Of a stretch of 64,000 bases of DNA, positions 5,070-56,925 are shown one piece after another. The notes under the pieces were generated by a model, which was not told the DNA's origin, ran no database searches, and worked only from the letters and a program-made list of their open reading frames with translations. The stretch's first letter is position 1, and each line of letters begins with the position of its first letter. This DNA comes from a virus. Location: positions 1-64,000 of the IMG/VR virus record IMGVR_UViG_3300033144_007704, one strand, 5' to 3'. The translations under genes and the position numbers were made by a program.

Positions 5070-5633
5070 ATGAAATTATCTCAGTATGCAAAATTAAATA
5101 ATGTCACCTATAGAACAGCATATCGACATTGGAAGACTGGTATTATCAAGGGAAAACAATTACCAACTGGCACTATAGTAATCAATGAAGAAAGATTGAA
5201 CAATAATTATATCATATATTGCCGAGTATCTTCTCACGATCAGAAAAAGGATCTAGAAAGACAAAAGCAAAGACTTCTTGATTATTGCAGTGCCAAGGGC
5301 TGGCTGGTAAAACACGTATATTCAGAAATTGCGTCCGGATTAAACGACGATAGGAAAATCCTAAACAAGATATTGTCTTCTGATAGTAATATCGTTGTTG
5401 AATACAAGGACAGATTAACCAGATTTGGATTTAATTACATCCAATTATTAATGGACAGGATAGGTAATCATGTTATAGTTATTAATGAAGACGAGAATAA
5501 GGATGATCTTATCCAGGATTTTATATCTATCATTACGTCCTTTGCTGCGAGAATTTATGGACGGAGAAGAAGTAAACGAAAAACAGAACGCCTAATAAAG
5601 GAATTGAAATATGAAGCTTCAGCGCAGCAGTAA
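5070..5633 (+). CDS. tnpA: IS607-family serine recombinase transposase TnpA
   Basis: 187 residues, full length for the family. Residues 1-45 form the MerR-like helix-turn-helix (SQYAKLNNVTYRTAYRHWKTG); then YIIYCRVSSHDQKKDLERQ carries the catalytic serine and arginine of the resolvase fold; VVEYKDRLTRFGF is the conserved arginine segment; and the C-terminus is basic. It would catalyse excision and integration of the IS607 element through a serine-DNA link. It overlaps tnpB by 23 bases. It seems intact, unlike its tnpB, so it could still mobilise this or related elements. Confidence 0.92.
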   Translation: MKLSQYAKLNNVTYRTAYRHWKTGIIKGKQLPTGTIVINEERLNNNYIIYCRVSSHDQKKDLERQKQRLLDYCSAKGWLVKHVYSEIASGLNDDRKILNKILSSDSNIVVEYKDRLTRFGFNYIQLLMDRIGNHVIVINEDENKDDLIQDFISIITSFAARIYGRRRSKRKTERLIKELKYEASAQQ

Positions 5634-39397: not shown

Positions 39398-39793
39398 ATG
39401 GATTATTTGCGCATCTATGTTAAAGAAGGTGACCAGGACAAAGTTAAAAAGAGGATTAAATTAGCTTGTCCCGCTATTATAAAAGAAGCAGTATTAGCTC
39501 CGATGTATGGACCCTCGCTCCCAAAATTAAAAAAACCAAAGGCCATGACTACCGGAATGAACACTAAAACAATGGCGTCCATGAGCGGACCTGAATTATC
39601 TCAAAGACTGAAACCGCCCACAAAATTTAGCACTCATTTCAAGACAGTTGGCAAGAAGGGTAAGTTGAAGCCAATATTTGAAACGACCCGAAAAGCAGGA
39701 AAAGGATTATTTAATAAAGCTTTTACAGGATTATGGGTTGGAAGCACCGTTTTAGATACATTAAAATATAGCCCGAAAGGCTTACCATTTTAA
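39398..39793 (+). CDS. Virion protein candidate with internal PAIIKEA motif
   Basis: 131 residues. A 28-residue lead (YLRIYVKEGDQDKVKKRIK) is followed by LACPAIIKEAVLAPMYGP, close to the MKCPEIIKEA leader of its neighbours, then a basic, proline-containing body and GKGLFNKAFTGLWVGSTVLD. If cleaved after the glutamate it would yield a small basic head protein. ATG at 39398; AAGGCGATA ribosome region. First gene of the leader family cluster. Function inferred from the shared motif. Confidence 0.55.
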   Translation: MDYLRIYVKEGDQDKVKKRIKLACPAIIKEAVLAPMYGPSLPKLKKPKAMTTGMNTKTMASMSGPELSQRLKPPTKFSTHFKTVGKKGKLKPIFETTRKAGKGLFNKAFTGLWVGSTVLDTLKYSPKGLPF

Positions 39794-39811
39794 AATAGAA
39801 AGGAGAAATAA

Positions 39812-40024
39812 ATGAAATGTCCAGAAATAATCAAGGAAGCATTATTTGGTTTAACCTTAACAACCCCTCTTTTTATTAGGAAGCGGAAAAGGATTTTTAA
39901 GGATAATGTTAAAAAAAAGAAGACAAAAATAAAAACACTTGAAAAATCTGATAAAATAAGAAATGCTTTAATTAATATGTCTAAAGACTATACAAAATAT
40001 CATGGAGATTTATATTTTGATTAA
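39812..40024 (+). CDS. Leader-family internal head protein candidate
   Basis: 70 residues behind AGAAAGGAGAAATA. It begins MKCPEIIKEALFG and the remainder is very basic (RKRKRIFKDNVKKKKTKIK). Cleavage after I-K-E by a T4-type prohead protease would release a basic DNA-binding-like peptide. It fits an internal head protein of the family described in the findings. No other domain seen. Confidence 0.6.
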   Translation: MKCPEIIKEALFGLTLTTPLFIRKRKRIFKDNVKKKKTKIKTLEKSDKIRNALINMSKDYTKYHGDLYFD

Positions 40025-40038
40025 AAGGAGAAAAATAA

Positions 40039-42042
40039 ATGAACTTATTCAAACAACCATTATCAGCTAAGGATGTTTTTTCTTTCATTAGAAAAGAAGC
40101 GTCTTTAGAGCTTTCCAATAAAATCGAAAATTGGCGAAAAGAAATCGATGAATACATGGATAGTCGCTATTCATTCTTATCGTCAGGGTTGGGAAGCGTA
40201 AATTTTAAAAAAGTAGATGAAAACACAAAAGACGCAGTGGGACAAATTATCTGGTCGGAAAATAATATGTCTTTTACTATTCCTATTATTATTGAAGACG
40301 GAAAATTAAAAGAACCCAATACAGCAGTATATAAGAACAAGATTATTCCTCTTGATGAGGAGTTTCTTTCCTGGACACAAAGTTCTAATGAAAATATAGG
40401 CGAAGCGGTTAAAGAAGATAAAGACATTACCGGCAATATGGAATACATCGCTCAAGATGGATTATTTTCATACGACGAAGAAGGACAGCAGAAAATATCT
40501 GCAGATCTGTCGACCATCGATCGTGTGAAAGGTTATCTTAAGGATAAGAGAATTAAATTAACCGAGAAGATAGCTTCTTCTATAAAAAACGCAATACCTG
40601 TAACTGCTCCTACAAAAGAGCACCTGTTGGAAGTTTTATCAGAAAATGCAGACATCCCATATCATTATAAGGTTGCCGCATTATACAGAGACGCAAAAGG
40701 TCGACTGGAAATTAAGGAAGGGACATTTAATGCAGAAGACATGAAAAAGCTGGGATATACTTCGGGTATAGGAATTGGACAAACCGATAGTCCAGACCAT
40801 CCGGATATAGAATATCATTATATTAGAAATGATAAGAACCTTCAAAAAATACCGGTAGTAAAAAGAATTACCGATACAAGACGTTGCGAGCAATTGCTTG
40901 TAGAGGGGAAAACAGCTCAAGGAAAGGTATTTAATAACCTTTTTGCAATATGGGAAAGTAAGCCTGAAATAAAAAGCCTGGCAACAATTGATAGAGAAAA
41001 AACGGAAGATGCGTACGGGTGGATATATGGGGATATATACGGAAGCGTCTCTCCGGACGACAAAGGAGAAGGCAAGGAATCGCATGGAGCATCCATAGAT
41101 ACTGAAAAAATAGATAGAGCTGCTGAAACATACGATAAAACAATAATATTTTTCGCAGGAGAAAATAATATATCCGTCCCATATCATGTTATTGGATGTG
41201 AAGACGTAAAAATCGGAGAAGAAGGCAATCGCGCCAGAACCCTTAAGGTAAAATCTCTGACAGACGATAAAATAGCTGTTCTCTGGCTTGATCATAATAT
41301 TACAAAGATACTGAAAGCAGATAATAAAAAACTAAAAGCTAAAGGTTATGCATCCTTAACATGGGCGAATTATGATGTTTATCTGATACCTGCTTCCTAT
41401 TCGATCGGAATACTTCAAGGCAGGAGAATCCCGGCAGCATCATATAAAGATGACTATCGTAAAATGATAAAAGATATCACAGGACAATATCCAATAGAGT
41501 TACAGATTCAACAAAGAGATGTGGACCTGTATAAAGTTGACATAACCGATTCCGGCGGCAAGAAAGAATATGATAGATTATCAAAAAATGCTGCAACCGT
41601 ATTAACAAGATATTTCACGGGTAATGGAATTAAAGACATTCAGGATGTAAGATATGATACTGCTTACAATATCCAGAAAGTCGCCAGAGAAGAAACTTTT
41701 CCCGTTAAATCGGTGGACCTCACCTCTCTTATAAAATATCGAGGCAATTGGATTAAAGCAGCCGGTATTATATGTAATGTTCCTGAAAAGATTCTTAAAA
41801 AAGCTGAGGTTAAGAAGGTTGTCGATGATTTAATTGGTATGGAATATATGGACAACAGTAATATTCAGGATATGGCTGAAGTAGAAACAAGAATAATGAA
41901 AGCCCTCGATGATGTTGGGCAATTGCTTTTAGTAGCGAGAATGGGAAAAACCGAATTATCTGAAGCGGTATTAGCTAAGAGTTTTAACGCCCTAACAAAA
42001 CTAATCAGTGAGATTCGAGGTAAAAACGAGGCGAAAGGATAA
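40039..42042 (+). CDS. Large virion-protein candidate
   Basis: 667 residues behind AAAAGGAGAAAAATA. The start NLFKQPLSAKDVFSFIRKEASLE contains FIRKEA, reminiscent of the leader motif. The body is alpha/beta, rich in D, K and Y, with no enzyme motif that I recognise; the C-terminal 100 residues are helical. Between two leader-family genes and the terminase, so a head or neck structural or internal protein is likely. Confidence 0.5.
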   Translation: MNLFKQPLSAKDVFSFIRKEASLELSNKIENWRKEIDEYMDSRYSFLSSGLGSVNFKKVDENTKDAVGQIIWSENNMSFTIPIIIEDGKLKEPNTAVYKNKIIPLDEEFLSWTQSSNENIGEAVKEDKDITGNMEYIAQDGLFSYDEEGQQKISADLSTIDRVKGYLKDKRIKLTEKIASSIKNAIPVTAPTKEHLLEVLSENADIPYHYKVAALYRDAKGRLEIKEGTFNAEDMKKLGYTSGIGIGQTDSPDHPDIEYHYIRNDKNLQKIPVVKRITDTRRCEQLLVEGKTAQGKVFNNLFAIWESKPEIKSLATIDREKTEDAYGWIYGDIYGSVSPDDKGEGKESHGASIDTEKIDRAAETYDKTIIFFAGENNISVPYHVIGCEDVKIGEEGNRARTLKVKSLTDDKIAVLWLDHNITKILKADNKKLKAKGYASLTWANYDVYLIPASYSIGILQGRRIPAASYKDDYRKMIKDITGQYPIELQIQQRDVDLYKVDITDSGGKKEYDRLSKNAATVLTRYFTGNGIKDIQDVRYDTAYNIQKVAREETFPVKSVDLTSLIKYRGNWIKAAGIICNVPEKILKKAEVKKVVDDLIGMEYMDNSNIQDMAEVETRIMKALDDVGQLLLVARMGKTELSEAVLAKSFNALTKLISEIRGKNEAKG

Positions 42043-42044
42043 AA

Positions 42045-43061
42045 ATGTCCTCAAAACAAACATTAAGGGCTGTGCCTCATGAAAACTATATTAAAGTTTT
42101 AATGTTGAGCGGAGTGCCGATAAAATCAACAGGCACGCAAAACAGCATAGATGATGTTTTGGTAGACGACAACTATAATAGCTTGCCGGAATATTATTAT
42201 AAATTAATAGAGGATGAATGCAGAATCATGCCCGGCGGGAGCGAAATGATCGATAAAAATCGTCTTGTCCAGGAATATAATTCTAAACTTATCAGGCCTG
42301 CAACAGCAAAGATATTAATGGTGTCTGATTCGGTTTCTAAGGAATTCAGGAGACCTGATATATTCCGTGATCTGGTTAATTATCAAAATTTTAAAAGAAA
42401 AAGATTCAAATACTCGGGGTCATACAGGATATTATATCTTCTTAGAACTGAAACTGCAAGACAGTATGTGGAATGTGCAGTTTTAACAAGAATGGCTTTA
42501 ACCGATTTGACTAAGGGCTGGAACGATATAACAGTAGGGCAGACAACCGTGAAGTTAAAGCCCATAGTGATAAGTGAGTATATATATTATTTTTGGAATT
42601 GCAGGGAATCCACCTTACGTAAACAGGGTACAACCAGATTAGATATAATGTCTTATCTCGATGCGGATAAGCAAAACAAATTTTACAGGCCTCATAGGGA
42701 ATTGTTGTTCAGGGAACCCTCTGTTACAAAACATAAATTCGGGACATTCTCAGAAGATGAAAGAAGAATAGATATTAGTGTTATGAGAGGCAAAACCAGG
42801 GATCGTATAATGGATATTCTGAGCAGCGAAAAACACAGATCGATATCTGCAGATATTTTAGATTTATTTAAATATTGCGATACACAAGTAAAAGAAAGTG
42901 CCGATCAAGGTAAAAGTGTCGATGAATATAAGGCTGTTATTGAGGATTTTAAACATAGGATAGTAGTGTGTGTTGAAGAGGATATTGCGCTGGATGATTT
43001 GAAAAACAGAAAGGTGGATCCGAGAACCATAGAAATGGATCAGCCGATTAATAAAAAATAA
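42045..43061 (+). CDS. Hypothetical head-module protein
   Basis: 338 residues, starting two bases after the previous stop behind GGCGAAAGGATAAAA. Mostly helical and charged; includes SDSVSKEFRRPDIFRDLVNYQNFKRK and RETARQYVECAVLTRMAL-like helices. The last 17 codons lie inside the 103-bp duplication (see 43011). No family recognised. Candidate small-terminase or connector partner by position only. Confidence 0.55.
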   Translation: MSSKQTLRAVPHENYIKVLMLSGVPIKSTGTQNSIDDVLVDDNYNSLPEYYYKLIEDECRIMPGGSEMIDKNRLVQEYNSKLIRPATAKILMVSDSVSKEFRRPDIFRDLVNYQNFKRKRFKYSGSYRILYLLRTETARQYVECAVLTRMALTDLTKGWNDITVGQTTVKLKPIVISEYIYYFWNCRESTLRKQGTTRLDIMSYLDADKQNKFYRPHRELLFREPSVTKHKFGTFSEDERRIDISVMRGKTRDRIMDILSSEKHRSISADILDLFKYCDTQVKESADQGKSVDEYKAVIEDFKHRIVVCVEEDIALDDLKNRKVDPRTIEMDQPINKK

Positions 43062-43113
43062 ATGGAGTAAAAGGAGAAGCGTTATGAAAACACCAGAAAT
43101 GATTAAGGAAGCG
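43011..43113 (+). repeat. 103-bp duplication, copy 1
   Basis: Covers the end of 42045-43061 and the ribosome site plus leader codons of 43084-43332. It matches 44076-44178 with a few substitutions (for example GGATCC against GGACCC). Confidence 0.85.
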
Positions 43114-43332
43114 ATTATAGGGCCACTCATAGATCTTAATTTGGTTGGGATACCGAGTATTATAGGCTATTTAAAAGGAAAAAAAGATGCTCTTAAAGCT
43201 AAAAAGATCGACAAAAGCCAATTGGATTTTGGAGATAAATTAGTGCGACATGCATTATTGCCGGGATCCTTGGGATATTGGGGAGGATATAGCTCTGGGG
43301 TAAAACAAAGAAAAAATAAGCAAGGACAATAA
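43084..43332 (+). CDS. Leader-family internal head protein candidate
   Basis: 82 residues behind AAAAGGAGAAGCGTT. MKTPEMIKEAIIGPLIDLNLVGIPSIIGYLKGKKDALKAKK starts with the leader, then a hydrophobic, glycine-rich segment and a basic end. After cleavage at I-K-E the mature peptide would be about 73 residues. Confidence 0.6.
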   Translation: MKTPEMIKEAIIGPLIDLNLVGIPSIIGYLKGKKDALKAKKIDKSQLDFGDKLVRHALLPGSLGYWGGYSSGVKQRKNKQGQ

Positions 43333-43335
43333 GTT

Positions 43336-43734
43336 ATGCCCAGTGTTAGTCGATCCCAACAATCCGCCTCAGCATTAGCATTGTCAGCTAAGCGAGGCAA
43401 AATATCTCCAAATAAATTATATGGAGCCGCAAAACAGATGTACAATAGTATGTCAGAAGAACAACTTCGGCATTACGCCGAAACAAAAACAAAAAATTTG
43501 CCTGAAAAAGTGGCAGAAGAGAGGAAATTTATGAAATGCCCGGAAATTATTAAAGAAGCGATATTTGGGATTGGCAAAAACATTTCTAAAGGATGGATAA
43601 AAACCAAGCATAAAGGTATATCCTATATGTTTAATAATACTGCGGAAACTCATAAAATTATGCAAAGACGAGATATTAATAGTGACGAAAGAATTAAATT
43701 AATGTTGAAAAATAAACTTATGAAAAAAGTTTAA
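43336..43734 (+). CDS. DUF3008 protein fused in frame to a leader-family protein
   Basis: 132 residues. Residues 1-58 are DUF3008 (PSVSRSQQSASALALSAKRGK, YGAAKQMYNSMSEEQLRHYAETKTKNLPEKV), a small basic family found in phages and bacteria. With no stop codon the frame continues through AEERKF into MKCPEIIKEAIFGIGKN, where an ATG at 43531 has its own AGAGGAAATTT ribosome site. It may be made as a fusion cleaved after I-K-E, as a separate short product, or both. Confidence 0.65.
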   Translation: MPSVSRSQQSASALALSAKRGKISPNKLYGAAKQMYNSMSEEQLRHYAETKTKNLPEKVAEERKFMKCPEIIKEAIFGIGKNISKGWIKTKHKGISYMFNNTAETHKIMQRRDINSDERIKLMLKNKLMKKV

Positions 43735-43762
43735 GCACAATGCTATAAGCAGGAGAAAACCT

Positions 43763-43954
43763 ATGAAATGCCCGGAAATTATTAAGAAAGCAGCGGATGA
43801 AAAATTATTAAACAAAAAGGTGAAAGTCCAAAAAAAGATCAGAAACTTTGTTATTATTGACAATCCGCAAGAACGAGAAGTATCCTCATTGGTCGTCGGG
43901 ATAGGCGAGGAATGGTGGAAACGTTGTTATCGCCGGGGACAGAAACTTTGTTAG
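43763..43954 (+). CDS. Leader-family protein, possibly frameshifted
   Basis: 63 residues behind AGCAGGAGAAAACCT. MKCPEIIKKAADEKLLNKKVKVQKK shows the leader with K for E at the cleavage position (I-K-K-A), so processing may be lost. The C-terminus (WWKRCYRRGQKLC) looks like a wrong frame; the other frame from 43912 reads VETLLSPGTETLLGVGLASRQLSK, so a frameshift near 43905 is likely. Confidence 0.45.
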   Translation: MKCPEIIKKAADEKLLNKKVKVQKKIRNFVIIDNPQEREVSSLVVGIGEEWWKRCYRRGQKLC

Positions 43955-44021
43955 GGGTAGGATTAGCTTCAAGGCAATTATCTAAGATGAATAAAGAAAA
44001 ATGGAGTAAAAGGAGAAGTGT

Positions 44022-44097
44022 TATGAAAACACCGGAAGCAATAAGAATTAGTTATTATGGGATAGAAAAAACAGGAAGGTGGACCCGAGAACCATAG
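44022..44097 (+). pseudogene. Truncated leader-family gene
   Basis: A leader start MKTPEAIR behind AAAAGGAGAAGTGTT at 44022 runs out of frame into the duplicated segment and stops at 44097 after 24 codons. It is also open upstream in frame to 43912. It looks like debris of the duplication that copied the leader region. Confidence 0.5.
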
Positions 44098-44178
44098 AAA
44101 TGGATCAGCCGATTAATAAAAAATAAATGGAGTAAAAGGAGAAGCGTTATGAAAACACCGGAAATTATTAAGGAAGCG
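44076..44178 (+). repeat. 103-bp duplication, copy 2
   Basis: Second copy of 43011-43113. Here the former end of the 338-residue gene is non-coding, while the ribosome site and leader codons start a new gene at 44149. Confidence 0.85.
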
Positions 44179-44358
44179 GTATTTGAAAAAATAGCTGAAC
44201 GAGGTCAAGGAATTGGTCAAGGCGGAGAAAGACAACTTGATTTTGGTGCAGATGAATGTAAATGTCCTAAATGTGGACATGTTACAAGTCATGGTAAAGG
44301 CACGCCATGTAATACAATAAGCTGCCCGGAATGTGGGACTAAAATGGTTGGGGTGTAA
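44149..44358 (+). CDS. Leader-family protein with zinc ribbon
   Basis: 69 residues behind AAAAGGAGAAGCGTT. The leader MKTPEIIKEAVFEKIAERG is followed by CKCPKCGHVTSHGKGTPCNTISCPECGTKMVG, a complete zinc ribbon. Cleavage after I-K-E would give a small zinc-binding internal protein. The combination shows that the leader is attached to unrelated cargo domains. Confidence 0.7.
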   Translation: MKTPEIIKEAVFEKIAERGQGIGQGGERQLDFGADECKCPKCGHVTSHGKGTPCNTISCPECGTKMVGV

Positions 44359-44367
44359 AACTAATTA

Positions 44368-46143
44368 ATGAGAAATTTAGATCCCAAAAAGATCATAATA
44401 GTTTCAGAGCATAAAAAAGTTCCGGGCAATTACCTTCAAGGAGGACATAAGCGCATTGCAAAAATGTACGCAGACGGAAGGGAATTGGCCGCAATAAAGG
44501 CTAGACACTTTAAGGGTGATTATAAAGGCTATATTTATAGAACGCATTTCATGAATGCATTATTAAACCTTAAGAATGAACCTTTATCTTATTGGTATCT
44601 GGAATTCTGGAAAGAAATATTAAATTCAGCAAGATTAAGCGTAGCCGTTCCTCCTGAAAGAAGGAAAATGATATGGAAATTTTCCCGCCAGACAGGAAAG
44701 TCCGTAAATGCGGGAGCATTAGCTATTACATTATCAGTTGAAAATGATAACTTTACAACAGTAATAACTCAACCGACCGATAAACAAATAAGCAGATTTT
44801 CCGTAGATATACTCAAGAGAATGAACAGGGATTCTATTATAACAGAAACATGGTATTATGATAATAAACTAAACGAGAGACAAGTTAAAAATAAATCATA
44901 TACAACTGGTTCTCGTATTGTTCTCGCCAATATATATAGTTCCGTATTGTCCGCCAGAGGTATTTCAGCAGATTTTTATCATGCAGACGAGTATCAAGAC
45001 ACACCCGAACATCATGCCACTATTATCGAAGAATCATTAAGTAGATCTCCTTTCAGATATATGATTAAAAGCGGAACTCCTTTACAGCCAGAAAATCCTC
45101 TTCAAAGAGAATTTGATAGATCTACCGGGCACGAATGGATGGTAAAGTGCGAAAAATGTAACACGTGGAACGGACCCCTCGGGATTAAAAATATAGGTAA
45201 ATACGGAACGATATGCTACAAATGTGGAGCAGAAATATATACCAGATTCGGGATATGGGCGGCAGCACAACCGTCTGCTGCTATAAAGGGATATCATGGT
45301 TGTGAATTAATGGTACCGCCGGACGCAGAATATGCCGCGACCTGGGCCGAGATATTATTTAAGCTCGAAAACAAAACAACTCTTGAATTCATGAACGAAG
45401 TCCTCGGCATGTCTTATTCCGATAATAAACATCCCATATCCAGACAAGACGTAATATCCGTATGTGTTCCCGGCAAACGTTATGTAAAAGAGATAACAGA
45501 AATAACTCCGGAAATGAAAAGATATTCTTATGCCGGCATAGACTGGGCAACGGTAATGCGCCCAGGCAGATCGAAAGAAGATATAAAATCTTTTACAACT
45601 CTCGTAATAGGTTCGTTTATACCAAACAGCAATAAGATCGAGATGAATTATATTAAGAGATATTATGATCTGGAGTTTGAGGATCCAAATAATCCGGATG
45701 CTGTTGTAGCGGATATGGTAAAGTGGATTAATGCACTTAATGTCAGGATAGTGGGAATGGATTTTGGAGCCGGACATCAAGAAAATATGCGATTAGTAAA
45801 CATATTAGGCTACGATAGAACAATGGAATTAGAATATCTGGGAGGAACAGACGATAAAGTTGTTTATGACAGCGCGTCAAATAAATGGCTTTTAAATCGA
45901 TCAAGGGTTATGGAAGATTTTATTGTAGATTTTGTTCTAAATAAAAGATTTAAAATGGCTAAGTACGATGGGGAAACATCAGAATATTCTGCCGATCTGA
46001 CAACAGTATATAAATACCATGATCCGGCTAAAAGATATTTAAGATTCGGGAAATCGGGGCCAGACGACTTGTTTCATGCAATGTTGTTTATGAGAATGGC
46101 GTGGTTGTTTGATCATGACAAATTGCCATATGTCTCAAAATAG
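44368..46143 (+). CDS. terL: Terminase large subunit
   Basis: 591 residues. The packaging ATPase has the Walker A-like KFSRQTGKSVNAG (about residue 107-112), TQPTDKQISRF, and a Walker B-like segment FYHADEYQDT (about 205). A zinc insertion (CEKCN...CYKCG) follows, as in some GpA-like terminases. The nuclease half has YAGIDWATV, RIVGMDFGAGH and SGPDDLFHAMLFMRMAW, the RuvC-like acidic sites. It drives ATP-powered DNA packaging and cuts genome ends at the portal. Start ATG at 44368 with a poor ribosome site. Confidence 0.92.
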   Translation: MRNLDPKKIIIVSEHKKVPGNYLQGGHKRIAKMYADGRELAAIKARHFKGDYKGYIYRTHFMNALLNLKNEPLSYWYLEFWKEILNSARLSVAVPPERRKMIWKFSRQTGKSVNAGALAITLSVENDNFTTVITQPTDKQISRFSVDILKRMNRDSIITETWYYDNKLNERQVKNKSYTTGSRIVLANIYSSVLSARGISADFYHADEYQDTPEHHATIIEESLSRSPFRYMIKSGTPLQPENPLQREFDRSTGHEWMVKCEKCNTWNGPLGIKNIGKYGTICYKCGAEIYTRFGIWAAAQPSAAIKGYHGCELMVPPDAEYAATWAEILFKLENKTTLEFMNEVLGMSYSDNKHPISRQDVISVCVPGKRYVKEITEITPEMKRYSYAGIDWATVMRPGRSKEDIKSFTTLVIGSFIPNSNKIEMNYIKRYYDLEFEDPNNPDAVVADMVKWINALNVRIVGMDFGAGHQENMRLVNILGYDRTMELEYLGGTDDKVVYDSASNKWLLNRSRVMEDFIVDFVLNKRFKMAKYDGETSEYSADLTTVYKYHDPAKRYLRFGKSGPDDLFHAMLFMRMAWLFDHDKLPYVSK

Positions 46144-46199
46144 AAAAATGTTGACAGAATATTAAAGATAGTTCTTATTTTGATTAGTAGGATAAATAA

Positions 46200-47132
46200 A
46201 TGGAAAAAGAAGCTTTTGTAGCGCCGCTTAGGATAAAAAGCAATGAAGAACGGCAGTCCCTTAAAGGGATTGCTAAAGAATATGCTAATGAAATGTCAGG
46301 TGGAGCATTAGGATTAGCAGCGTCATTGCCTATAGGATATGCTTTTGGTAAGGGTATGCAAAAGATTCCGGCCATTAGAAAGAGTCCTCGCCTTGCGAAG
46401 TTTATGCAGGCGAATTTAAGTATGGTTCCGACCAGGGCTATGAGGGCAGCAGCAAAGAAAGTTATTTCATCTACAACTAAAAATCCTCTTGCTTTAAAAA
46501 GGATAGATATTGCGACATCGAAATATATCCGAGCTGGAGCGAGAAAGTGGATTGGGAAACCTAAAAATTTAGCTATGTTAGCCGGGATAATGATAGCAGG
46601 AGTAGCTGGTTCATATCTGGGTGGAAAAACTTCTATAAGAAAAATGGAGAAAAGAGATAAGTTACCACCTGTAGATCAAGGTTTAATTACAGCAAGGCGA
46701 TCCGCAACATTTCTTTTTCCGGAATCGCTTAAACCTATAGAAGCTGCGGTATATTATGGAATAACAAAAAAATATTTAAAAGATAAGGAAATAAATAAAA
46801 CAGGAGAATTTATGAGAACACCAGAAATTATAAAAGAAGCAATGGGCATGCCTGCGAAAGGATTGATCATAGACACAATAGGCGGAGGCGCAATAGGAGC
46901 GGGTATTGGCGGAATATTTGGGAAAAGAACTAACACTAAGGGAAAGAAGCGATCCTTTCTTGCAAGAGCAGGGAAGGGGGCGTTGGTAGGAACGGCGATA
47001 GGTGGTGGAGTTAATTTGGCAGCAAAAGGTGCTTATAGATTGAAAACGGGTAAAAATCCCTTTAAGTTTAAGTATTCTCCTAATACATGGAAAGCCGCTT
47101 TAACAGGAGAATTCAGAAGGATCAGGACATAA
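46200..47132 (+). CDS. Fusion of a glycine-rich protein with a leader-family protein
   Basis: 310 residues. The first part begins MEKEAFVAPLRIK and has hydrophobic glycine-rich spans (GGALGLAASLPIGYAFGKG, LAMLAGIMIAGVAGSYLGG). Without a stop it reads into MRTPEIIKEAMGMPAKG, where an ATG at 46812 has its own CAGGAGAATTT ribosome site, then a second glycine-rich segment (GGGAIGAGIGGIFGKRT). Either two products arise or the precursor is cleaved after I-K-E. The hydrophobic hairpins recall membrane-inserting virion proteins ejected with DNA. Confidence 0.6.
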   Translation: MEKEAFVAPLRIKSNEERQSLKGIAKEYANEMSGGALGLAASLPIGYAFGKGMQKIPAIRKSPRLAKFMQANLSMVPTRAMRAAAKKVISSTTKNPLALKRIDIATSKYIRAGARKWIGKPKNLAMLAGIMIAGVAGSYLGGKTSIRKMEKRDKLPPVDQGLITARRSATFLFPESLKPIEAAVYYGITKKYLKDKEINKTGEFMRTPEIIKEAMGMPAKGLIIDTIGGGAIGAGIGGIFGKRTNTKGKKRSFLARAGKGALVGTAIGGGVNLAAKGAYRLKTGKNPFKFKYSPNTWKAALTGEFRRIRT

Positions 47133-47169
47133 TAATAACGAGATGTTCTAATAAAAAGGAGAAAAAATA

Positions 47170-48549
47170 ATGTTTGGAATTCAATCATTCGACGAAGAAA
47201 GAATTGAAAAATTAGCAACACAGGTCTTAGCATATGCTCAAGACACACAAATAAGCCTAACCGACGGACTTAGAAAAATAGCAACAGACTACGGTCTCTC
47301 TTCTGCTGAAATAGAAAATGTTTGCGGGAGGGTGAACCATATACATTTCAGTAATAAATTTGCAGAGGATAAACTTGTGTCGTTTAAAAGAGCAGTTTTT
47401 GAAGATGTCATTGGGTCTACTACAAAAACTGCCGGCTATAGGATTTATTCCGGCAAGCTGATGAAAAATATCTATGAATATCTTGACAAAGAAGCTGCCG
47501 ATAAAGACATTGCGCCGGAAGGAGAATTTGCTGAACCGAGAAAATATAAACAATCAGACTCACAGAGAAAAGCATCGCTGATAGATGCTGCACACAGAAA
47601 TGCCGACACTTTAAATGAAATGGAAAGCAATAGAAATGCCGAGCTCGATAAGATGCGTAATACAATTATACAACTTGTTCAATCCGGTGAATCTCTTAAT
47701 AATATATATGAAGTCATATATAAGACGTGGGGAAAGAATAACGTCGGTGAACTTGACAGATATTTCGCTGAACTTATTGGAGACTTGAAAGCGGACGGAT
47801 ATATCTCGAGTAAGGATGAGCTTAAAATACCTGGAGTAGAAAGCATCCCGGATAGAGAAATAGCCGAAACTCCATTACAGAAAAGTGCAGAGTCAATATT
47901 AAAGTTAAGCACCGATATTATAAAAAGAGAAATAGTTCATTATAATCTTCAGGATATGCTTAAGGAGGCAGGGGAACATACTTCTGCCAGGATAGTAGAT
48001 GAAATTGCCGGAGATGAATTTATGGTGGCCGATATAATGGCCACCGCCATGGAAAAGGACGCTAAGTTCTTTCAAACCATAGGGAAAGCTCTTAAATCTA
48101 CTGGTATAGGAACTGCTCTTTTTGCCGCTCCAGCCATATTAGGAGCAAGTATTGCTCGAGCAGATGATATTGCTTGGAAAATGAAAAGAAAAAAGATACA
48201 GGAAGATTTACCAAACAGATTCCCTGAACTAAAAGAGATTCCAGCCCAGAAATATGTAGATATTTATGAAACCATAACGGCTTTGACTCCAGTTCTTTTA
48301 AAAGCTCCGTATGCTTTGGCTGAGACGATCAAGGGAGTTTATGAATATGATACTATTGATACCGGAACAATAACATCATTGATAAGTGCAAGTGCAAAAG
48401 GGAAACAACCATCTATTGGGACAGAATCCCTTATGAAGAGTTTATCGCAGGGAATTAGTTCACAGATGCCGAAGCCTAAGCAACAGAGCAATGAAGTGCA
48501 TGAATTTCCAGCAACATTAACAGGATATCATGCGGAAAAATATAAATAG
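47170..48549 (+). CDS. Head-module protein, possible scaffold or internal protein
   Basis: 459 residues behind AAAAGGAGAAAAAATA. Acidic and helical (ESGNSLN, REIAETPLQKSAESILKLSTDIIKR) with a late hydrophobic segment (GIGTALFAAPAILGASIARAD). Several K-E-A sites (LDKEAAD, MLKEAGE) could be cleavage points. Position between the leader-family genes and the portal gene suggests a scaffold/core or ejected protein; not shown. Confidence 0.45.
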   Translation: MFGIQSFDEERIEKLATQVLAYAQDTQISLTDGLRKIATDYGLSSAEIENVCGRVNHIHFSNKFAEDKLVSFKRAVFEDVIGSTTKTAGYRIYSGKLMKNIYEYLDKEAADKDIAPEGEFAEPRKYKQSDSQRKASLIDAAHRNADTLNEMESNRNAELDKMRNTIIQLVQSGESLNNIYEVIYKTWGKNNVGELDRYFAELIGDLKADGYISSKDELKIPGVESIPDREIAETPLQKSAESILKLSTDIIKREIVHYNLQDMLKEAGEHTSARIVDEIAGDEFMVADIMATAMEKDAKFFQTIGKALKSTGIGTALFAAPAILGASIARADDIAWKMKRKKIQEDLPNRFPELKEIPAQKYVDIYETITALTPVLLKAPYALAETIKGVYEYDTIDTGTITSLISASAKGKQPSIGTESLMKSLSQGISSQMPKPKQQSNEVHEFPATLTGYHAEKYK

Positions 48550-48566
48550 GAAAAGGATGGTAAATT

Positions 48567-48920
48567 ATGAAAACACCGGAAATAATTAAGGAAGCGATTG
48601 TTTGGCCGTGGGGAAAACAAATGAAAGGCTTTGGAACGGTCGTGAAAACTAATCCAAAAAGTGATGAATTAAAAAAAGCCTTTACGTTATATGAAAAAAC
48701 AACAGGTAAAGGTAAAAACGATATGACAATGATGGATATTAATAAATATGTCATTAAAATAAGAGGACCGCAACCAAAGAAAGAGCCGGGAATTATGTCT
48801 CGGGCTATAAGAGACTTAAAAGATCCAAGATTTAAATCTAATATTAAGAATTTTTTTAAATCTAAAGAGAAAAGAATAGCTGCACACAAAAATCTAAAGG
48901 GATACCCCTTTAAGGATTAA
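48567..48920 (+). CDS. Leader-family internal head protein candidate
   Basis: 117 residues. MKTPEIIKEAIVWPWGKQMKGFG, then a basic body with KSNIKNFFKSKEKRIAAHKNLKGYP. Longest cargo of the family in the window. AAGGATGGTAAATT ribosome region. Predicted cleavage after I-K-E. Confidence 0.6.
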   Translation: MKTPEIIKEAIVWPWGKQMKGFGTVVKTNPKSDELKKAFTLYEKTTGKGKNDMTMMDINKYVIKIRGPQPKKEPGIMSRAIRDLKDPRFKSNIKNFFKSKEKRIAAHKNLKGYPFKD

Positions 48921-48945: not shown

Positions 48946-51732
48946 ATGGCCATAAGCGATATTAATGACGCGAAACTTGTACAACTCACGGGGAACAAAA
49001 ATATAGTCGATATGATATTTGCGACTAATTTAAATAAGCTATATATTCCCGTAGATGTTAAGGTGTACTATCTATTTGTTGAATACTTCTTTACTTATAC
49101 GAGTATTGGGGCGGCTATAATGAAATTAGCCAGGTTTCCAATATCTAATTTGGAATCCATATGTGAGAGCGATGCCCTTAAAAAAGCAGCCAAAAAAATA
49201 CAGCGCAAAATTAAGCTGAAAGAAAAATTAGTTAAGATAGGAATAAACTATTTTTTATACGGATCATCTTATGTTGTTCCCACATTTCCTATAAGAAAGA
49301 CAATTATTTGTCGCTCTTGTGGAAAGACGTATCAATTACGGAAGCTTGAGATGAACGGGAAAAAGCAATATACATTCCAAAGTGGCAAATACGGATTTAA
49401 ATGCACAAACAAGAAATGTAAATGGTATAGGCAAGATAAAGAATTCAAAGTTGAGGACAGGCCCGTAAGGGATATTTCTAAAATGACCTTGGCGCTATGG
49501 TCTCCGCTCAATATGGAAGCTAATGAAAATACTATTACTGATCAGCGGCAATATTTATATAAACTTGATAAGAAAATGGTCAATAAAATAAAGAGGGGTG
49601 ATCATTTCACTTTGTGTACCACCCCGGAGATGTATATAAAGGCAGCATCAGAAGGATATTCGATTAAAGTTAATTCTGATAAAATGTTTGTTTTAGAGGC
49701 TCCTACATTAAAGATAAACGGGATACCTATTCCTCCAATGGTCATGGCTATGAATGATCTAATATTGAGAACAAAATATTTAACTGCCAATAGGACTGTT
49801 TCAGAAGATCTTTTAGTTCCATTCCGAATGATGTTCCCTATCAATAAAGGTGAAGTAGGACAGAGACCTCTAACTCAACAACTTAGATCGGTAGATTGGG
49901 TTATTAAAGCTCGCAGTGAACTAAAAAAATGGGAAACAGATAAAAGCCATGTCGTAACACTTCCAATAGAGATAGGCACAAAAGATGCTTGGGGACAGGG
50001 AAAATTATTAGCACTGCATCAGGAATTGAAAGCTAATATGAGCGATATATTATCTACTATGGATATGCCCATAGAATTCTTTTACGGCGGAGCAACTTGG
50101 TCTAGGCAAAACGTATCGGCAATTATATTAGAAAATACATTTAAGCAATATTCGGCGCTTCTGCAGGATATTCTTGATTATATATCCGATGAAATAAATA
50201 AAAAGCAGATAGATCCGGATATATTGGAAATAAAAATTAAAACTCCTCGCCTGGTCGATGCCATGGCAGAAAATGTTTATTTGGAAAGAGGGTTTGATAA
50301 AGGAGATATTAGTCCTCAAACATACTACGATACTTTAGGTAAAAATTATTCGAGAGAAATGCAGATCATTAATAAAAACAGAGAGATGATCGAGCAATCC
50401 AGACAGAGTAGAGCAAAGGGAGCCGCTCTTGCTGAGGCAAAAGCTCAGGAGTCTTTACTTAATGTCCAGGAGAAAATAAGAAGCTTTGAGAGAGTAGAGA
50501 ACTTAAAAGATGGTATAGCTCAAGGAAGGGTCGAAGAAGACAGTCTTAATAGAAATATCAGGGCACAAAAAGAGTTATCCTTGCTTAACGCGGAAATACA
50601 GAAGGAGATAATGCGAGCTAATGCTGCGGTAATGTCAAAACAGATGAAGGAACAGTCTTCGAGTTCTATGGATAATATGAAGGTCCAGCTTAAACTTCAA
50701 TCCGATGAAGAGTATAAAAATGCTAAAAGAATGCAGAAGCTCGAAATAAAGGGCATGAAAGCTCAGGCAAAAGCAGAAGATCAGATAGTGGCAGAAAGAG
50801 AAGACGTGACAGCGAAAAAGCAGATTGCCGGAATATTTGAATCGCTTTCGCCCGAGATCAAAGCAGAAATAGCTAAGTTTCCTCCTGAAGAACAAGAAAA
50901 AGCCATAATGCAATATGGCGAACAGAAGAAAATGCAAACTATATTAGAATCCTTACCAGAAGAAGAAAGAGAGGCGATTAAAGATCTTCCCGAGGAAGAA
51001 CAATCGCAAAGATTAGGAGAATTAGTTCGGCAGCAGGAAGAGAAAGAACAATTGGAGCAAAGAACACAAGAAGATCCCGGTCTCGAAAAAGAGATGATGA
51101 AACAAAAAATTGAAGCAGACAAAGAAGAGGAAGGCATAGATATTCAAGCCTCGACATTAAATAAATTACAGGGACAAGAAAGAGAAGAGTTTAAAATACA
51201 GTTAATGCAAGAAGATGCGAAGAGATTTGCTAAAATTAAAGAAGTAGCGGATATGATGTTTGTGCAGGATATCGTTAACAGCATTATGCAGGCAGATCCA
51301 AAAAACGCAGAAATTATTTATAAGGAAGAGGTCGAAGCAAAAAGGCCTGAATTAGCCGATGATGTTTATAGTGAGTTGGAAAGACAATTGTTTTATCAAC
51401 ATCAATCTAACGGTTGGGCACTAAGATTGTTACAGACGGAAGGAACTCCGGAGCAGGAAGATCTTATCGAGCAACTCCGCAAAGATACTCCAAAGCAGTT
51501 CAGGCAAATGGTCTTTCAAAACTATAAAGAACTTGCCAGGGTTCCTGCTAAAAAAAGAGAGATATATCTCGATAAGGCTGCTTATGAAAAAGATAGGCGA
51601 AATGATATAGCAAAAGAACTCGCAGCAAACATAGATGTATATCCGGAAGAGGAAAAGAAAAAAATTCTCGGGGCTTTAAAGTATGAAAATCCCGAGTTGT
51701 ATAAAAATACAATGTATTTCATGGGAGAATAA
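48946..51732 (+). CDS. Portal protein with long C-terminal coiled coil
   Basis: 928 residues. The first 480 residues look like a phage portal: FFTYTSIGAAIMKLARFPIS, INYFLYGSSYVVPTFP, IPIPPMVMAMNDLILRTKYL, ELKANMSDILSTMDMPIEFFYGGATWSRQNVSAI, and DISPQTYYDTLGKNY. An inserted zinc ribbon (CRSCGKTY...CTNKKCKWY) is unusual. After about residue 500 there is a long, very charged coiled coil (KAQESLLNVQEKIRSFERVENL ... QEEKEQLEQRTQ) and a helical end; the terminase is 2.8 kb upstream. The ring would sit at one capsid vertex for DNA passage. Confidence 0.7.
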   Translation: MAISDINDAKLVQLTGNKNIVDMIFATNLNKLYIPVDVKVYYLFVEYFFTYTSIGAAIMKLARFPISNLESICESDALKKAAKKIQRKIKLKEKLVKIGINYFLYGSSYVVPTFPIRKTIICRSCGKTYQLRKLEMNGKKQYTFQSGKYGFKCTNKKCKWYRQDKEFKVEDRPVRDISKMTLALWSPLNMEANENTITDQRQYLYKLDKKMVNKIKRGDHFTLCTTPEMYIKAASEGYSIKVNSDKMFVLEAPTLKINGIPIPPMVMAMNDLILRTKYLTANRTVSEDLLVPFRMMFPINKGEVGQRPLTQQLRSVDWVIKARSELKKWETDKSHVVTLPIEIGTKDAWGQGKLLALHQELKANMSDILSTMDMPIEFFYGGATWSRQNVSAIILENTFKQYSALLQDILDYISDEINKKQIDPDILEIKIKTPRLVDAMAENVYLERGFDKGDISPQTYYDTLGKNYSREMQIINKNREMIEQSRQSRAKGAALAEAKAQESLLNVQEKIRSFERVENLKDGIAQGRVEEDSLNRNIRAQKELSLLNAEIQKEIMRANAAVMSKQMKEQSSSSMDNMKVQLKLQSDEEYKNAKRMQKLEIKGMKAQAKAEDQIVAEREDVTAKKQIAGIFESLSPEIKAEIAKFPPEEQEKAIMQYGEQKKMQTILESLPEEEREAIKDLPEEEQSQRLGELVRQQEEKEQLEQRTQEDPGLEKEMMKQKIEADKEEEGIDIQASTLNKLQGQEREEFKIQLMQEDAKRFAKIKEVADMMFVQDIVNSIMQADPKNAEIIYKEEVEAKRPELADDVYSELERQLFYQHQSNGWALRLLQTEGTPEQEDLIEQLRKDTPKQFRQMVFQNYKELARVPAKKREIYLDKAAYEKDRRNDIAKELAANIDVYPEEEKKKILGALKYENPELYKNTMYFMGE

Positions 51733-52708: not shown

Positions 52709-55606
52709 ATGATGAAAAAAATATTAGGAATTTTATTAATATTACTGCTTACAGTAAGTGTAATACAGGCAAAAAGCGTCGAGAGAATAGATAAGCTTAT
52801 TACGGCTCTTATTACCTCGAATGCGGCTGATGGAGACATAACTCTAGATCCTCTTGGAACCGGAAAGGTTGTGGTTGCGGGAGATATTGATATCAGTAAT
52901 GATGTTCTGCTTACAACAGGCGGAGCACTCAGCTGGAATGCTGCTGATTTAATGACGCATTCGGAACATAAAATGACATTATCAGAATTCACAACTTGGG
53001 ACTTTGGAGCAGTTGCGACAATGGATTTTAATGGAGCTACAAATTTCACAAGCGCTGCTGCTGGATGGGTTTTTGACGGAATATTACAGATTGATACAAT
53101 TACAGACGTAGGCGACGATGCAACTTTATCGTTCTCTGGAACAAATGGAATTGATGTAGAAAACGCTGCAACTGTTGGAACATTGGTATCGGATGCTACA
53201 ATAGTGGCTACAACTAATATAACAGCAGGTGTATCTGGTTCAAGTGAAGTTAGACCGATCTTTTCAATAATTGCAGACGCCGATTCCGATGCTGAAGACA
53301 CAGACGAAACAATTGCTTTAACTCTAACCCCCAATGCCGATCCGACTCTTGCGATTTGGGCATTTACTACAACTCAATCTGCTGGTATAGATTTTAATAT
53401 GCCTATTACCGCTACTTCGCTTATTACAGATGGAGTGCTTCAAACATTTGGAGCTTTCACTTCTCTTGGTATTGACGATAACGCTGATGCTACTGCAATT
53501 ACTATTGACATTACAACTGAGAAAGTTCATTTTTCTGCTGACGCTGATGTAGTTGGAGATTTAACGGCGGGAACTATTACGAGCGATGCAGGTGTGTCTG
53601 GAACAACTATCACGGCTTCAACTGGTTTTGCTCTTGGAGATGGTGATTACGTTGGAATAACAGGTAATGAAACGCTTATATTCAATGCTGCTGGCACAAT
53701 AGAAGTAGTTGGCGCCGATGTAGATTTTAATGGCAATTCAATTAAAAATGCTCAACTTGAATTATCTCTGTCACAAGGTCTTGCTTGGGACCAAGCAAAT
53801 GATACTTATGAAAGGCTTGGCTCATTAGCAGGAGTATCAACGTCAGTAAGTGCTGGTGATGATTATCTGCCAATTCAATCTGATATGAAACGCTGTCTGT
53901 TACAGGATGACGGAACGGTCAATTATTATATTGATGCAGATGACCCAATTATGAAGGATGGAACTACAGTAGCTGTATCTGGTTCCGCAACGAGTCAGCC
54001 CGAATTTTTTACAACCGAAGAAGATAGAATATTAACAGGCGGAACAAGTGATTGGACAAATGCTGCTGCCGGCGATGCTTATGCTTCTTTTGACAAGACA
54101 GAAAATTTGAGTCTAACTGCTGATGCTATTGGTGATTATTGCTATATTACTTTTACAAATATTGGAACCACTCTTGAAAGTGGCAAAAGGTATGTATTAG
54201 AATATGATTATACACAGACAGTAGCAGGATTTGAATTTAAACTTACTGGAGTTACGGGACAAACAATTGGAACTGCAGTTGCAGGAACTGATAAAAAATT
54301 ATATTTTACTGCTGTAGAAGATTATGCTACTACAGACCAATTACAAATAATGGCAACAACAGCAGCTAATTCACAAGGAGATTTCGACAATTTCAGCTTG
54401 AAATGCTGTCAACTATTAGATGCAGGCGGTGATTTTGTAACTGATGGCGTAGTAGCTGGTATGTATATCCGAAACATTACAGATGATCCTGATAGCTACG
54501 CTTACATTATGCAGGTAGAAGCGACAAAACTGACCTTGAATACGGACATTTTCCCAGATGGCACTGATGCTTATGAGGTTGGAACTGCTGATTTTAGTGG
54601 GACTGACGGGCAGGTTGTGGTTCAAATTGATAAATTTTACTATAAACAATATAAAACAGGTAATATTTTCTATTGGTATGTTTCTAAATATGATTTAGCC
54701 GGTTTCGATTTACACCCTGCCTTTTGGAAGGACGGACAGGAAGTAGATTATAGATATTATTCAGCTTTTGAGGGAAGTATGTATGATGCAACTGCGGGCG
54801 GGATGACATCTAAGGCAAATATTCCTGTATCAATTTATGCAAGCGGTGATAAAATGTGCTCGGTAGCTGGGCAGTGGGCAAAGACAAACGAAACAAGGAC
54901 AGAATATCGAGCAATGGCTGCTGAAAGAGGAACTGGCTGGAGACAATTGGATTATTATCTGCATTCTGCCGTGCAATTGCTTTATCTTATCGAGTATGCC
55001 GACTTTAATTCGCAAGTAGAAATCGGAATGGGCAGAACAGAATTATCTGATGGAGTTTGGGAAGCAGACTCTTATATTGGATTTACGGGATATAGTGTTT
55101 CCGATGGAAATGGCACTAATTCTTTGTCTAACGGAACTACGATTGGTTATCTAACCGATTATATGACATATCGTGGAATTGAAAATTTTTACGGCAATGT
55201 GTGGAAAATGTTAGATGGCATTACCTGGGATGGACGTTGGATAGATCCTCCAGGCGTTGCGGCAGCTCAACCTGTTTATGTTACTAATAATGTCTCGTAT
55301 TTTCAAGATGCAGCAAGGGTTAATATGCAACATCTCTGCAACGCAAGTTATATCGGAACCAGTGCAGGATATATTGGAAATCTGGAAAATGTAACAGGAT
55401 TTATACCAAGTGCAACTGGCGGAAGTGAAACAACGAAAGTATGTGATTACTATTATCAATACTCAGAATCGGGACGAGATTACTGGCGGGTGGTTCTGGT
55501 CGGTGCGGCTGCGGATTACGGTTCGAGGGCGGGCGTGGTCGCGTTGGCGGTGTATAACGCTTCGTCGAAGGATAGTGTGGATATCGGCGCTCGGCTTTGC
55601 TTTTAA
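52709..55606 (+). CDS. DGR target protein: fibre-like with signal peptide and variable lectin end
   Basis: 965 residues. The N-terminus (MKKILGILLILLLTVSVIQAKS) is a typical signal peptide. The next 350 residues are repetitive, D/T/G/A-rich beta sequence such as ADGDITLDPLGTGKVVVAGDIDI, typical of phage fibres. The C-terminus ends in a C-type-lectin-like domain whose last 39 codons are the variable repeat (WRVVLVGAAADYGSRAGVV ... VDIGARLCF). Variable residues sit where DGR lectins place ligand contacts. I infer a receptor- or surface-binding protein under diversification. The signal peptide is odd for a phage fibre. Start ATG at 52709, with a second ATG directly after; ATAAGGAGACT ribosome site. 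Confidence 0.8.
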   Translation: MMKKILGILLILLLTVSVIQAKSVERIDKLITALITSNAADGDITLDPLGTGKVVVAGDIDISNDVLLTTGGALSWNAADLMTHSEHKMTLSEFTTWDFGAVATMDFNGATNFTSAAAGWVFDGILQIDTITDVGDDATLSFSGTNGIDVENAATVGTLVSDATIVATTNITAGVSGSSEVRPIFSIIADADSDAEDTDETIALTLTPNADPTLAIWAFTTTQSAGIDFNMPITATSLITDGVLQTFGAFTSLGIDDNADATAITIDITTEKVHFSADADVVGDLTAGTITSDAGVSGTTITASTGFALGDGDYVGITGNETLIFNAAGTIEVVGADVDFNGNSIKNAQLELSLSQGLAWDQANDTYERLGSLAGVSTSVSAGDDYLPIQSDMKRCLLQDDGTVNYYIDADDPIMKDGTTVAVSGSATSQPEFFTTEEDRILTGGTSDWTNAAAGDAYASFDKTENLSLTADAIGDYCYITFTNIGTTLESGKRYVLEYDYTQTVAGFEFKLTGVTGQTIGTAVAGTDKKLYFTAVEDYATTDQLQIMATTAANSQGDFDNFSLKCCQLLDAGGDFVTDGVVAGMYIRNITDDPDSYAYIMQVEATKLTLNTDIFPDGTDAYEVGTADFSGTDGQVVVQIDKFYYKQYKTGNIFYWYVSKYDLAGFDLHPAFWKDGQEVDYRYYSAFEGSMYDATAGGMTSKANIPVSIYASGDKMCSVAGQWAKTNETRTEYRAMAAERGTGWRQLDYYLHSAVQLLYLIEYADFNSQVEIGMGRTELSDGVWEADSYIGFTGYSVSDGNGTNSLSNGTTIGYLTDYMTYRGIENFYGNVWKMLDGITWDGRWIDPPGVAAAQPVYVTNNVSYFQDAARVNMQHLCNASYIGTSAGYIGNLENVTGFIPSATGGSETTKVCDYYYQYSESGRDYWRVVLVGAAADYGSRAGVVALAVYNASSKDSVDIGARLCF
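55486..55602 (+). repeat. DGR variable repeat (VR)
   Basis: 117 bases at the 3' end of the target gene, aligned without gaps to the template repeat 156 bases downstream (55642-55758). They differ at 25 sites; 21 are at template adenines (16 to G, 2 to C, 3 to T), the signature of adenine mutagenesis. The other four are T to G. Confidence 0.92.
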
Positions 55607-55641
55607 AATATCATGAAAAATTTATATAGGTTTTTATGCCA

Positions 55642-55758
55642 GCGGGTAGTTCTGGTCGGTGCGAATGCGAATAACAGTTCGAAAGCAGGCGTTTTCACGT
55701 TGAATGTGAATAACACTTCGTCGAATAATAATGTGAATATCAGCACTCAGCTATGCTT
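55642..55758 (+). repeat. DGR template repeat (TR)
   Basis: 117 bases starting GCGGGTAGTTCTGGTCGG, lying between the target gene and the reverse transcriptase. Its RNA is copied with mutagenesis at adenines into the VR. It is non-coding in effect, although an open frame crosses it. The AT-rich stretch on both sides and the following hairpin-prone CTCTCGCC-type segment probably complete the template RNA. Confidence 0.9.
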
Positions 55759-55869
55759 ATTTTTAACAAATATACGGCATAAAATCCTTGGCTCTCGCCA
55801 AAATACAAAGCAACCCTCACTACGTGTTAGTAGGTTAATTCTCGAAAGCTCGGAGGTGAAATAAGCAAA

Positions 55870-56925
55870 ATGAAGAGATATGGTTATTTATACGAAAAGA
55901 TTTACGACATTGAAAACATTAAGCTTGCTCATAAAAATGCGAGAAAGGGGAAATTGCATTATAAGGAAGTGAGAATGGTGGATAAAAATCCAGATAAGTA
56001 TTTCGATGAAATCCATAAGATGCTTAAGAATAAAACATACAAAACATCTAAATATGAAATTATTCAAAGAAAAATGGATAGTGGAAAAGTAAGGGAGATA
56101 TATAAACTTCCATATTTCCCTGACAGAATTATACATCACGCAATTATGCAGATTACAGAACCTATCTGGAGAAAGACGTTAATAAGAGATACTTATTCAT
56201 CTCTGAAAGGCAGAGGTATTCACGATGGTGTTAAAAGGATAAAGAAAGCTTTAAGGGGTAAGGAAAATACTAAATATTGTTTGAAAATGGATATAAAAAA
56301 ATATTATCCAAGTATTGATAATGGTATTTTAAAACAAATCATCAGAAAAAAAATAAAAGACCCTGATTTATTGTGGCTTTTAGATGAGATAATTGATAGT
56401 TCAGAAGGCGTTCCTATTGGGAATTATTTAAGTCAATATTTTGGGAATCTATATTTAACAGGATTAGATCACGAATTAAAAGAAAAATATAGATTAAAAT
56501 ATGTATTTCGTTATTGTGATGATATTTGTATCTTACATAAAAGCAAAGAATTTTTACATTCTATCAGAGAAGTAATTGAAAAATACTTAATAAAATTAAA
56601 GCTCAATCTTAAAGAAAATTGGCAAGTGTTCCCTATTAATATTCGAGGACTTGATTTTCTTGGCTATAGATTCTTTCACGATTACATTCTATTAAGAAAA
56701 TCAATTAAAATGAAATTCATAAAGAAAATAAGAAAGATAAACAAAGATTGGAAAAATTTATCTCATACTAAGGTAATTAACAGTATAATGAGTTATTGTG
56801 GTTGGTTTAAATATGCTAATTGTAAAAATCTTGCAAATAAATATATTGATAATAAGATATTTTGGATAGTGAAATATATATCTAAAAACAATAATATATC
56901 AAATCCGTTACAAGGATTAAGATGA
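55870..56925 (+). CDS. DGR reverse transcriptase
   Basis: 351 residues, normal length for a DGR reverse transcriptase. Motifs in order: DRIIHHAIMQ, YSSLKGRGIHDGVKRI, KMDIKKYYPSID (first catalytic aspartate), SSEGVPIGNYLSQYFGNLYL, and FRYCDDICIL (YxDD-type active site), then LDFLGYRFF. SQYFGN replaces the usual retroviral signatures as in DGR enzymes. No maturase or endonuclease domain follows, which separates it from group II introns. It reverse-transcribes the TR RNA with errors at adenine. AGCTCGGAGGTGAAATA ribosome site. Confidence 0.92.
   Translation: MKRYGYLYEKIYDIENIKLAHKNARKGKLHYKEVRMVDKNPDKYFDEIHKMLKNKTYKTSKYEIIQRKMDSGKVREIYKLPYFPDRIIHHAIMQITEPIWRKTLIRDTYSSLKGRGIHDGVKRIKKALRGKENTKYCLKMDIKKYYPSIDNGILKQIIRKKIKDPDLLWLLDEIIDSSEGVPIGNYLSQYFGNLYLTGLDHELKEKYRLKYVFRYCDDICILHKSKEFLHSIREVIEKYLIKLKLNLKENWQVFPINIRGLDFLGYRFFHDYILLRKSIKMKFIKKIRKINKDWKNLSHTKVINSIMSYCGWFKYANCKNLANKYIDNKIFWIVKYISKNNNISNPLQGLR

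Follow-up and report, generated by a model that had tools for sequence, protein, structure and literature searches.

The ten-residue leader MK(C/T)PEIIKEA, carried by short and otherwise mostly unrelated phage proteins encoded near head genes, is probably a head-targeting propeptide that is built on a K-x-A maturation protease site and loads cargo into the head. We found eight copies of this leader and one decayed copy in the window, by which we mean the whole 64,000-nucleotide stretch analysed, which covers almost the whole of a linear virus record of 64,432 bp. Two IMG/VR relatives carry the same leader. One is close (G002, IMGVR_UViG_3300005917_000540; terminase 85% identical to that of the window) and one more distant (G001, IMGVR_UViG_3300009314_000008, 78 kb; terminase 50% identical). 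The features around the leaders, compared where possible with these relatives and with Salmonella phage Arash, were as follows.

39398..39793, + strand: 131-aa basic protein with an internal leader LACPAIIKEA (39461-39490) that lacks Met (open reading frame, relatives, leader table)
39812..40024, + strand: 70-aa protein with leader MKCPEIIKEA (open reading frame and pattern search)
40039..42042, + strand: 667-aa conserved protein of the head gene cluster (conserved in both relatives)
42045..43061, + strand: 338-aa conserved protein of the head gene cluster (positional counterparts in L009 and G001)
43018..43113, + strand: one copy of a duplication of about 100 bp, repeated at 44073-44178
43084..43332, + strand: 82-aa protein with leader MKTPEMIKEA (body resembles G001 rc29307, by eye)
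43336..43734, + strand: DUF3008 domain (PF11450, E 2e-19), then leader MKCPEIIKEA (43531-43560)
43763..43954, + strand: 63-aa protein with leader MKCPEIIKKA (open reading frame and pattern search)
44023..44097, + strand: decayed leader MKTPEAIRIS..., then a duplicated fragment from the end of gene 42045
44149..44358, + strand: 69-aa zinc-ribbon-like protein with leader MKTPEIIKEA (open reading frame and pattern search)
44368..46143, + strand: terminase large subunit (PHROG 675, E 5.9e-51; PF05876)
46200..47132, + strand: 310-aa Gly-rich protein with N-terminal MEKEAF and an internal leader MRTPEIIKEA (46812-46841)
47170..48549, + strand: 459-aa virion protein with several K-x-A sites (profile match to Arash gp220, detected by mass spectrometry)
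48567..48920, + strand: 117-aa basic protein with leader MKTPEIIKEA (open reading frame and pattern search)
48946..51732, + strand: portal protein, 928 aa (tblastn to Arash gp204, annotated as portal, E 1e-29)

All the leader copies listed in the earlier note were present, with some corrections of position. The decayed copy (MKTPEAIRISYYG...) begins at 44023 and not at 44022, and the leaders at 43531 and 46812 sit within the longer open reading frames (ORFs) 43336-43734 and 46200-47132. A ribosome-binding-like stretch precedes both of these ATG codons (AGGAGA in the case of 46812), and translation may therefore begin internally. A degenerate DNA pattern for PEIIKEA gave eight + strand sites in the 64,432-bp record, and the reversed-pattern control gave none. 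The seven canonical copies showed 18, 18 and 73 differences at codon positions 1, 2 and 3, respectively, and 55 of the 85 differing codons were synonymous. The 30 nt after the leader, compared at all nine sites, showed 248, 224 and 242. Because the differences between leaders fall mostly at third positions, the peptide and not the DNA is conserved. The codon test and the leader table thus upheld the proposal of a peptide tag carried by mostly unrelated proteins. A reading as a DNA-level element was dropped on the codon test, and a signal peptide or lipobox reading was dropped because some copies of the tag are internal and lack Met.

The leader genes sit among head genes, where the earlier note had placed them, as profile and tblastn matches for the terminase large subunit, the portal and virion proteins confirmed. 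The N-terminal FIRKEASLEL of the 667-aa protein has K and A invariant in two relatives. This protein gave no PHROG or Pfam match, and no cultured phage matched it by tblastn. Its profile comparison with Arash gp218 was not significant (E 0.011, probability 4%), so the pairing of these two is one of position alone. PHROGs and Pfam gave nothing for most virion proteins of the window and recognised no capsid gene in its contig. The identifiable pieces of the leader-protein bodies were DUF3008 and zinc-ribbon-like only; a scan of six leader ORFs assigned no effector family, and the ORF at 43336-43734 yielded only DUF3008.

Several leader proteins had counterparts in the relatives. The internal leader of the 39398 ORF corresponds to KLACPLIIKEA (L009 4084) and KLACPIVLKEA (G001 rc28792). 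The body that follows the 43531 leader is found in L009 (14535) as a separate protein with a leader of its own, at a different place, and the counterpart of the 44149 protein (L009 9233-9526) has a tandem double leader. A leader-like mini-ORF, MKCPGIIKS followed by a stop, was also seen at L009 6144, overlapping the end of a 446-aa ORF.

Outside this region, the window contains a diversity-generating retroelement (52709-56925) with its reverse transcriptase at 55870-56925. The variable repeat (55486-55602) lies where a tail protein gene ends (3'), and 21 of its 25 mismatches with the template repeat (55642-55758) fall on template adenines. Several transposase genes (224-1336, 5070-5633, 21979-23151 and 60740-61912) were TnpB-like and IS607-like, judged by PHROG name or by sequence, and an amidase/endolysin-like gene lies at 1636-2454.

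A motif search of phage genomes, proposed in the earlier note, found the leader pattern in IMG/VR in two relatives only: M-K-C-P-x-I-[IV]-K-x-A matched the G001 and G002 contigs and no others. Two exact matches in a genome collection of 257 Gb were both due to chance and lay outside a phage context. G002 has ten intact leaders and one interrupted by a stop. A single G002 ORF carries two leaders in tandem, and in another a GNAT-like domain lies between two leaders, the second of which lacks Met. G001 has about 15 leaders with the conserved core C-P-x-[IV]-[ILV]-K-x-A, in which K was kept in 14 of 15 and A in 12 of 15 (S in two more). The E before A was present in only seven of 15, and leaders without it include MNCPVILKRA and MKCPQIVKMA. 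Two G001 leaders (rc11377 and rc29625) had no standard start codon.

The cargo-like domains behind leaders come from these relatives. A 615-aa G001 ORF is ordered as leader, kinase-like region (called by eye, with no library match), inorganic pyrophosphatase (InPase, E 7e-51), second leader and M91/M48-like peptidase. G001 rc18002 combines an InPase (E 7e-51) with an M91/M48-like peptidase (E 5e-5, just below the Pfam cut-off), and so has the at least two effector-type domains in one phage polypeptide that characterise polyvalent proteins. The G001 InPase region also matched PHROGs named DarB-like antirestriction and virion structural protein. In both relatives the leaders stand before and between modules of the polyvalent-protein type (kinase-like, inorganic pyrophosphatase, metallopeptidase and GNAT). 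Two G001 ORFs near head genes have J-domain-like HPDKGG regions (rc17105 and rc27132, L034:460-1341 and L033:10421-11314; DnaJ E 1e-4 and 2e-4, below the Pfam cut-off), and one of them also carries DUF3008.

The earlier note had asked for a prohead protease and a major capsid gene in the rest of the genome. Both were found in G001, which also encodes a portal, while a protease profile search of the 64-kb window contig, a linear fragment, gave no match. As no protease gene was found in the contig, the window phage is linked to the protease via G001 and Arash. The G001 protein (662 aa) is related to Arash gp222, and lies upstream of the capsid gene in both phages. We modelled its N-terminal 333 residues using an alignment with 38 IMG/VR relatives (pLDDT 80); the single-sequence model reached a pLDDT of only 34, and the 39-sequence alignment worked. 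By this model the G001 protease is predicted to have the herpesvirus/T4 gp21-type prohead protease fold with conserved His and Ser. VIA-align comparison of residues 46-288 gave Z 10.8 for the VZV protease and Z 9.4 for T4 gp21. Foldseek gave weak PDB matches (E of 0.1 or higher, with gp21 second), matches in BFVD were named prohead proteases (E < 1e-6), and a profile search of PDB sequences gave no match. A PHROG named head maturation protease was matched by 25 of 39 protease relatives. A His and a Ser were invariant in 45 of 45 aligned proteases, all of which had a K-x-A pair just before the catalytic domain; in a second alignment the K of this pair was slightly below invariant.

To characterise the code around this protease, we scanned 79 other phage loci that encode it for all residue pairs with gaps of 0-3. 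K-x-A was the most over-represented pair (z 25.6). With h standing for a hydrophobic residue, hxKxA occurred 1373 times against 411 expected (3.3-fold), and exceeded 1.5-fold in 57 of 60 loci. Variants of the motif did not share this excess: hxRxA stood at 0.98-fold and hxKxS at 1.07-fold, and replacements by R, E, S and G gave about 1.0-1.1. The favoured context was [LMIF]-E-K-x-A-[SA], and the sites were spread along entire proteins. Unlike the general K-x-A site, where S or A is favoured in the next position, the leaders usually have a hydrophobic residue after the A, which weighs against the propeptide reading. At the capsid protein N terminus, K was present in 30 of 37 and A in 33 of 37 sequences, and ten of 20 non-redundant family members had the full hxKxA within their first 60 residues (2.0 expected). 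In the open-licence literature we found no description of K-x-A in connection with a prohead protease; an earlier description is possible.

In the window, hxKxA occurred 11 times in leader ORFs (2.9 expected) and 13 times in core virion proteins (4.7 expected), compared with 17 upstream (14.0 expected) and 4 downstream (4.0 expected). G001 had 47 in its head region (15.2 expected) and 10 in its tail region (10.4 expected). These per-region counts place the enrichment solely in head and leader ORFs of the two phages. The motif test found no hxKxA in the window's terminase large subunit.

The Arash virion data comprise 116 proteins identified by mass spectrometry and 136 undetected. The motif clusters in virion proteins so detected: those of the Arash head that are encoded near the protease and the capsid gene carried up to ten-fold the expected number of hxKxA sites (gp220, 9 vs 1.0; gp223, 8 vs 1.1; gp225, 6 vs 0.6; gp222, 6 vs 1.3), and the undetected proteins were at expectation (31 vs 32.3). 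The G001 capsid protein and gp220-like protein each matched no cultured phage by tblastn. Some K-x-A-rich Arash virion proteins had 100% peptide coverage, so not every site is fully cut. This high coverage, the spread of sites over whole proteins and the same sequence evidence as above would also fit a docking role in which hxKxA binds the scaffold, the protease or the inner face of the capsid, with the leaders as uncleaved packaging tags. However, the near-invariant site just before the protease catalytic domain is as expected of self-processing, and other sites are located between cargo modules. We therefore regard docking as unlikely.

The earlier note had read the leader as a T4-type capsid-targeting sequence, cut IKE/A after I-x-E. 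The IIKE/A of the leader does fit the T4 (I/L)xE/A, and [LI]xE[AGS] exceeded expectation both in the window leader ORFs (7, with 1.8 expected) and in the head region of G001 (33, with 15.0 expected), in part because IKEA satisfies both motifs. However, T4-type [IL]xE[AG] reached only 1.2-fold in the 79 loci against the 3.3-fold of hxKxA, fewer than half of the G001 leaders have the E, and the protease and capsid protein retain K and A. Identical statistics applied to T4 recovered [LI]xE[AGS] in the gp67/68/21/22/23/24 group only (19 vs 5.1), and hxKxA was not enriched in that group. With this positive control working, the leader agreed with T4 as a shared N-terminal peptide on unrelated head-region proteins and departed from it at the (I/L)-x-E cut site, which makes the T4-type reading quite improbable.

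The leaders at 43084 and 44149 share the recent duplication of about 100 bp, which includes upstream DNA (98 of 106 aligned positions identical) and comprises the end of gene 42045, a ribosome-binding site and the leader. The decayed copy lies between these two leaders, and together they suggest that leaders spread by recombination and then diversify. That the leader is a functionless by-product of such a cassette (ribosome-binding site plus first codons) would fit this pair and the decay at 44023, but is hardly credible, since the other copies differ mostly at synonymous sites and two other phages retain the leader, including internal and start-codon-less copies.

As a head-targeting propeptide, the leader would have as its core the cutting site of the phage head-maturation protease. 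The general form of that site, hydrophobic-x-K-x-A, would be shared by head proteins with the major capsid protein and the protease. Onto it, this lineage would have fused a fixed MK(C/T)P element, in which Cys-Pro presumably has a role. Leader-bearing proteins would be recruited into the forming head and probably trimmed near K-x-A, perhaps just after A if the P3-x-P1 sites of other phages are a guide; the remainder would stay in the head and could be ejected with the DNA. The tag may have been reused for cargo proteins that are unrelated to one another, whether small or modular, including at positions between the modules of a single polypeptide.

Other K-x-A tags were MNKYLEKIA in L101, L113 and L124, and MNHFxxGFxxELxKxA in L060. 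Tags on unrelated proteins were identical at at least 5 of 11 variable positions in 2.5% of comparisons within one genome, on the small basis of 14 within-genome pairs, and in 0.26% between genomes. The MKCPEIIKEA family thus seems to be the form that a more widespread practice takes in one lineage. A broader claim, which in our judgement could go either way, is that a large, mostly uncultured phage group uses a K-x-A head-protease code, and that its lineages build genome-specific, recombination-swapped N-terminal loading tags sending arbitrary proteins into the head for injection. Predicting which phage proteins travel inside the head into the cell is difficult. Should K-x-A prove to be the protease code and the tag a loading label, the sequences of many uncultured phages would reveal such cargo, among it predicted kinases, pyrophosphatases, peptidases and J-domain proteins. 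Cultured Arash, for which virion mass spectra are already recorded, offers a direct test of the code.

Among known systems, the heads of Arash and Vibrio phage D181 share a homologous protease and portal, a gp220-like protein and K-x-A-rich virion proteins with the leader phages. However, protein identity is about 25%, and no MKCP leader was present among the head-region proteins examined. Polyvalent proteins such as the P1 DarB type are thought to be packaged and injected (PMC5512222), and have InPase, GNAT, kinase-like and metallopeptidase modules like those of the relatives' leader ORFs. In the relatives, in contrast, the modules are preceded or separated by a leader, and no such leader was found described in the consulted part of that source. 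Propeptides of the giant phages SPN3US and phiKZ are cut by gp245-type proteases at A-x-E (PMC10052503). These phages likewise place a single two-residue-spaced code on many head proteins with multiple sites each, but the code residues differ, and the consulted part of that paper reports no shared short N-terminal tag. The T4 capsid-targeting sequence of IPI-IPIII, cut by gp21, is also a short N-terminal tag with a maturation-site-like core on unrelated small proteins near head genes, and gp21 matches the fold modelled for the G001 protease. In contrast to T4, the leader has K-x-A instead of (I/L)-x-E at its core and a near-invariant Pro, usually with Cys or Thr before it, stands also inside ORFs and between modules, and tags more genes per genome.
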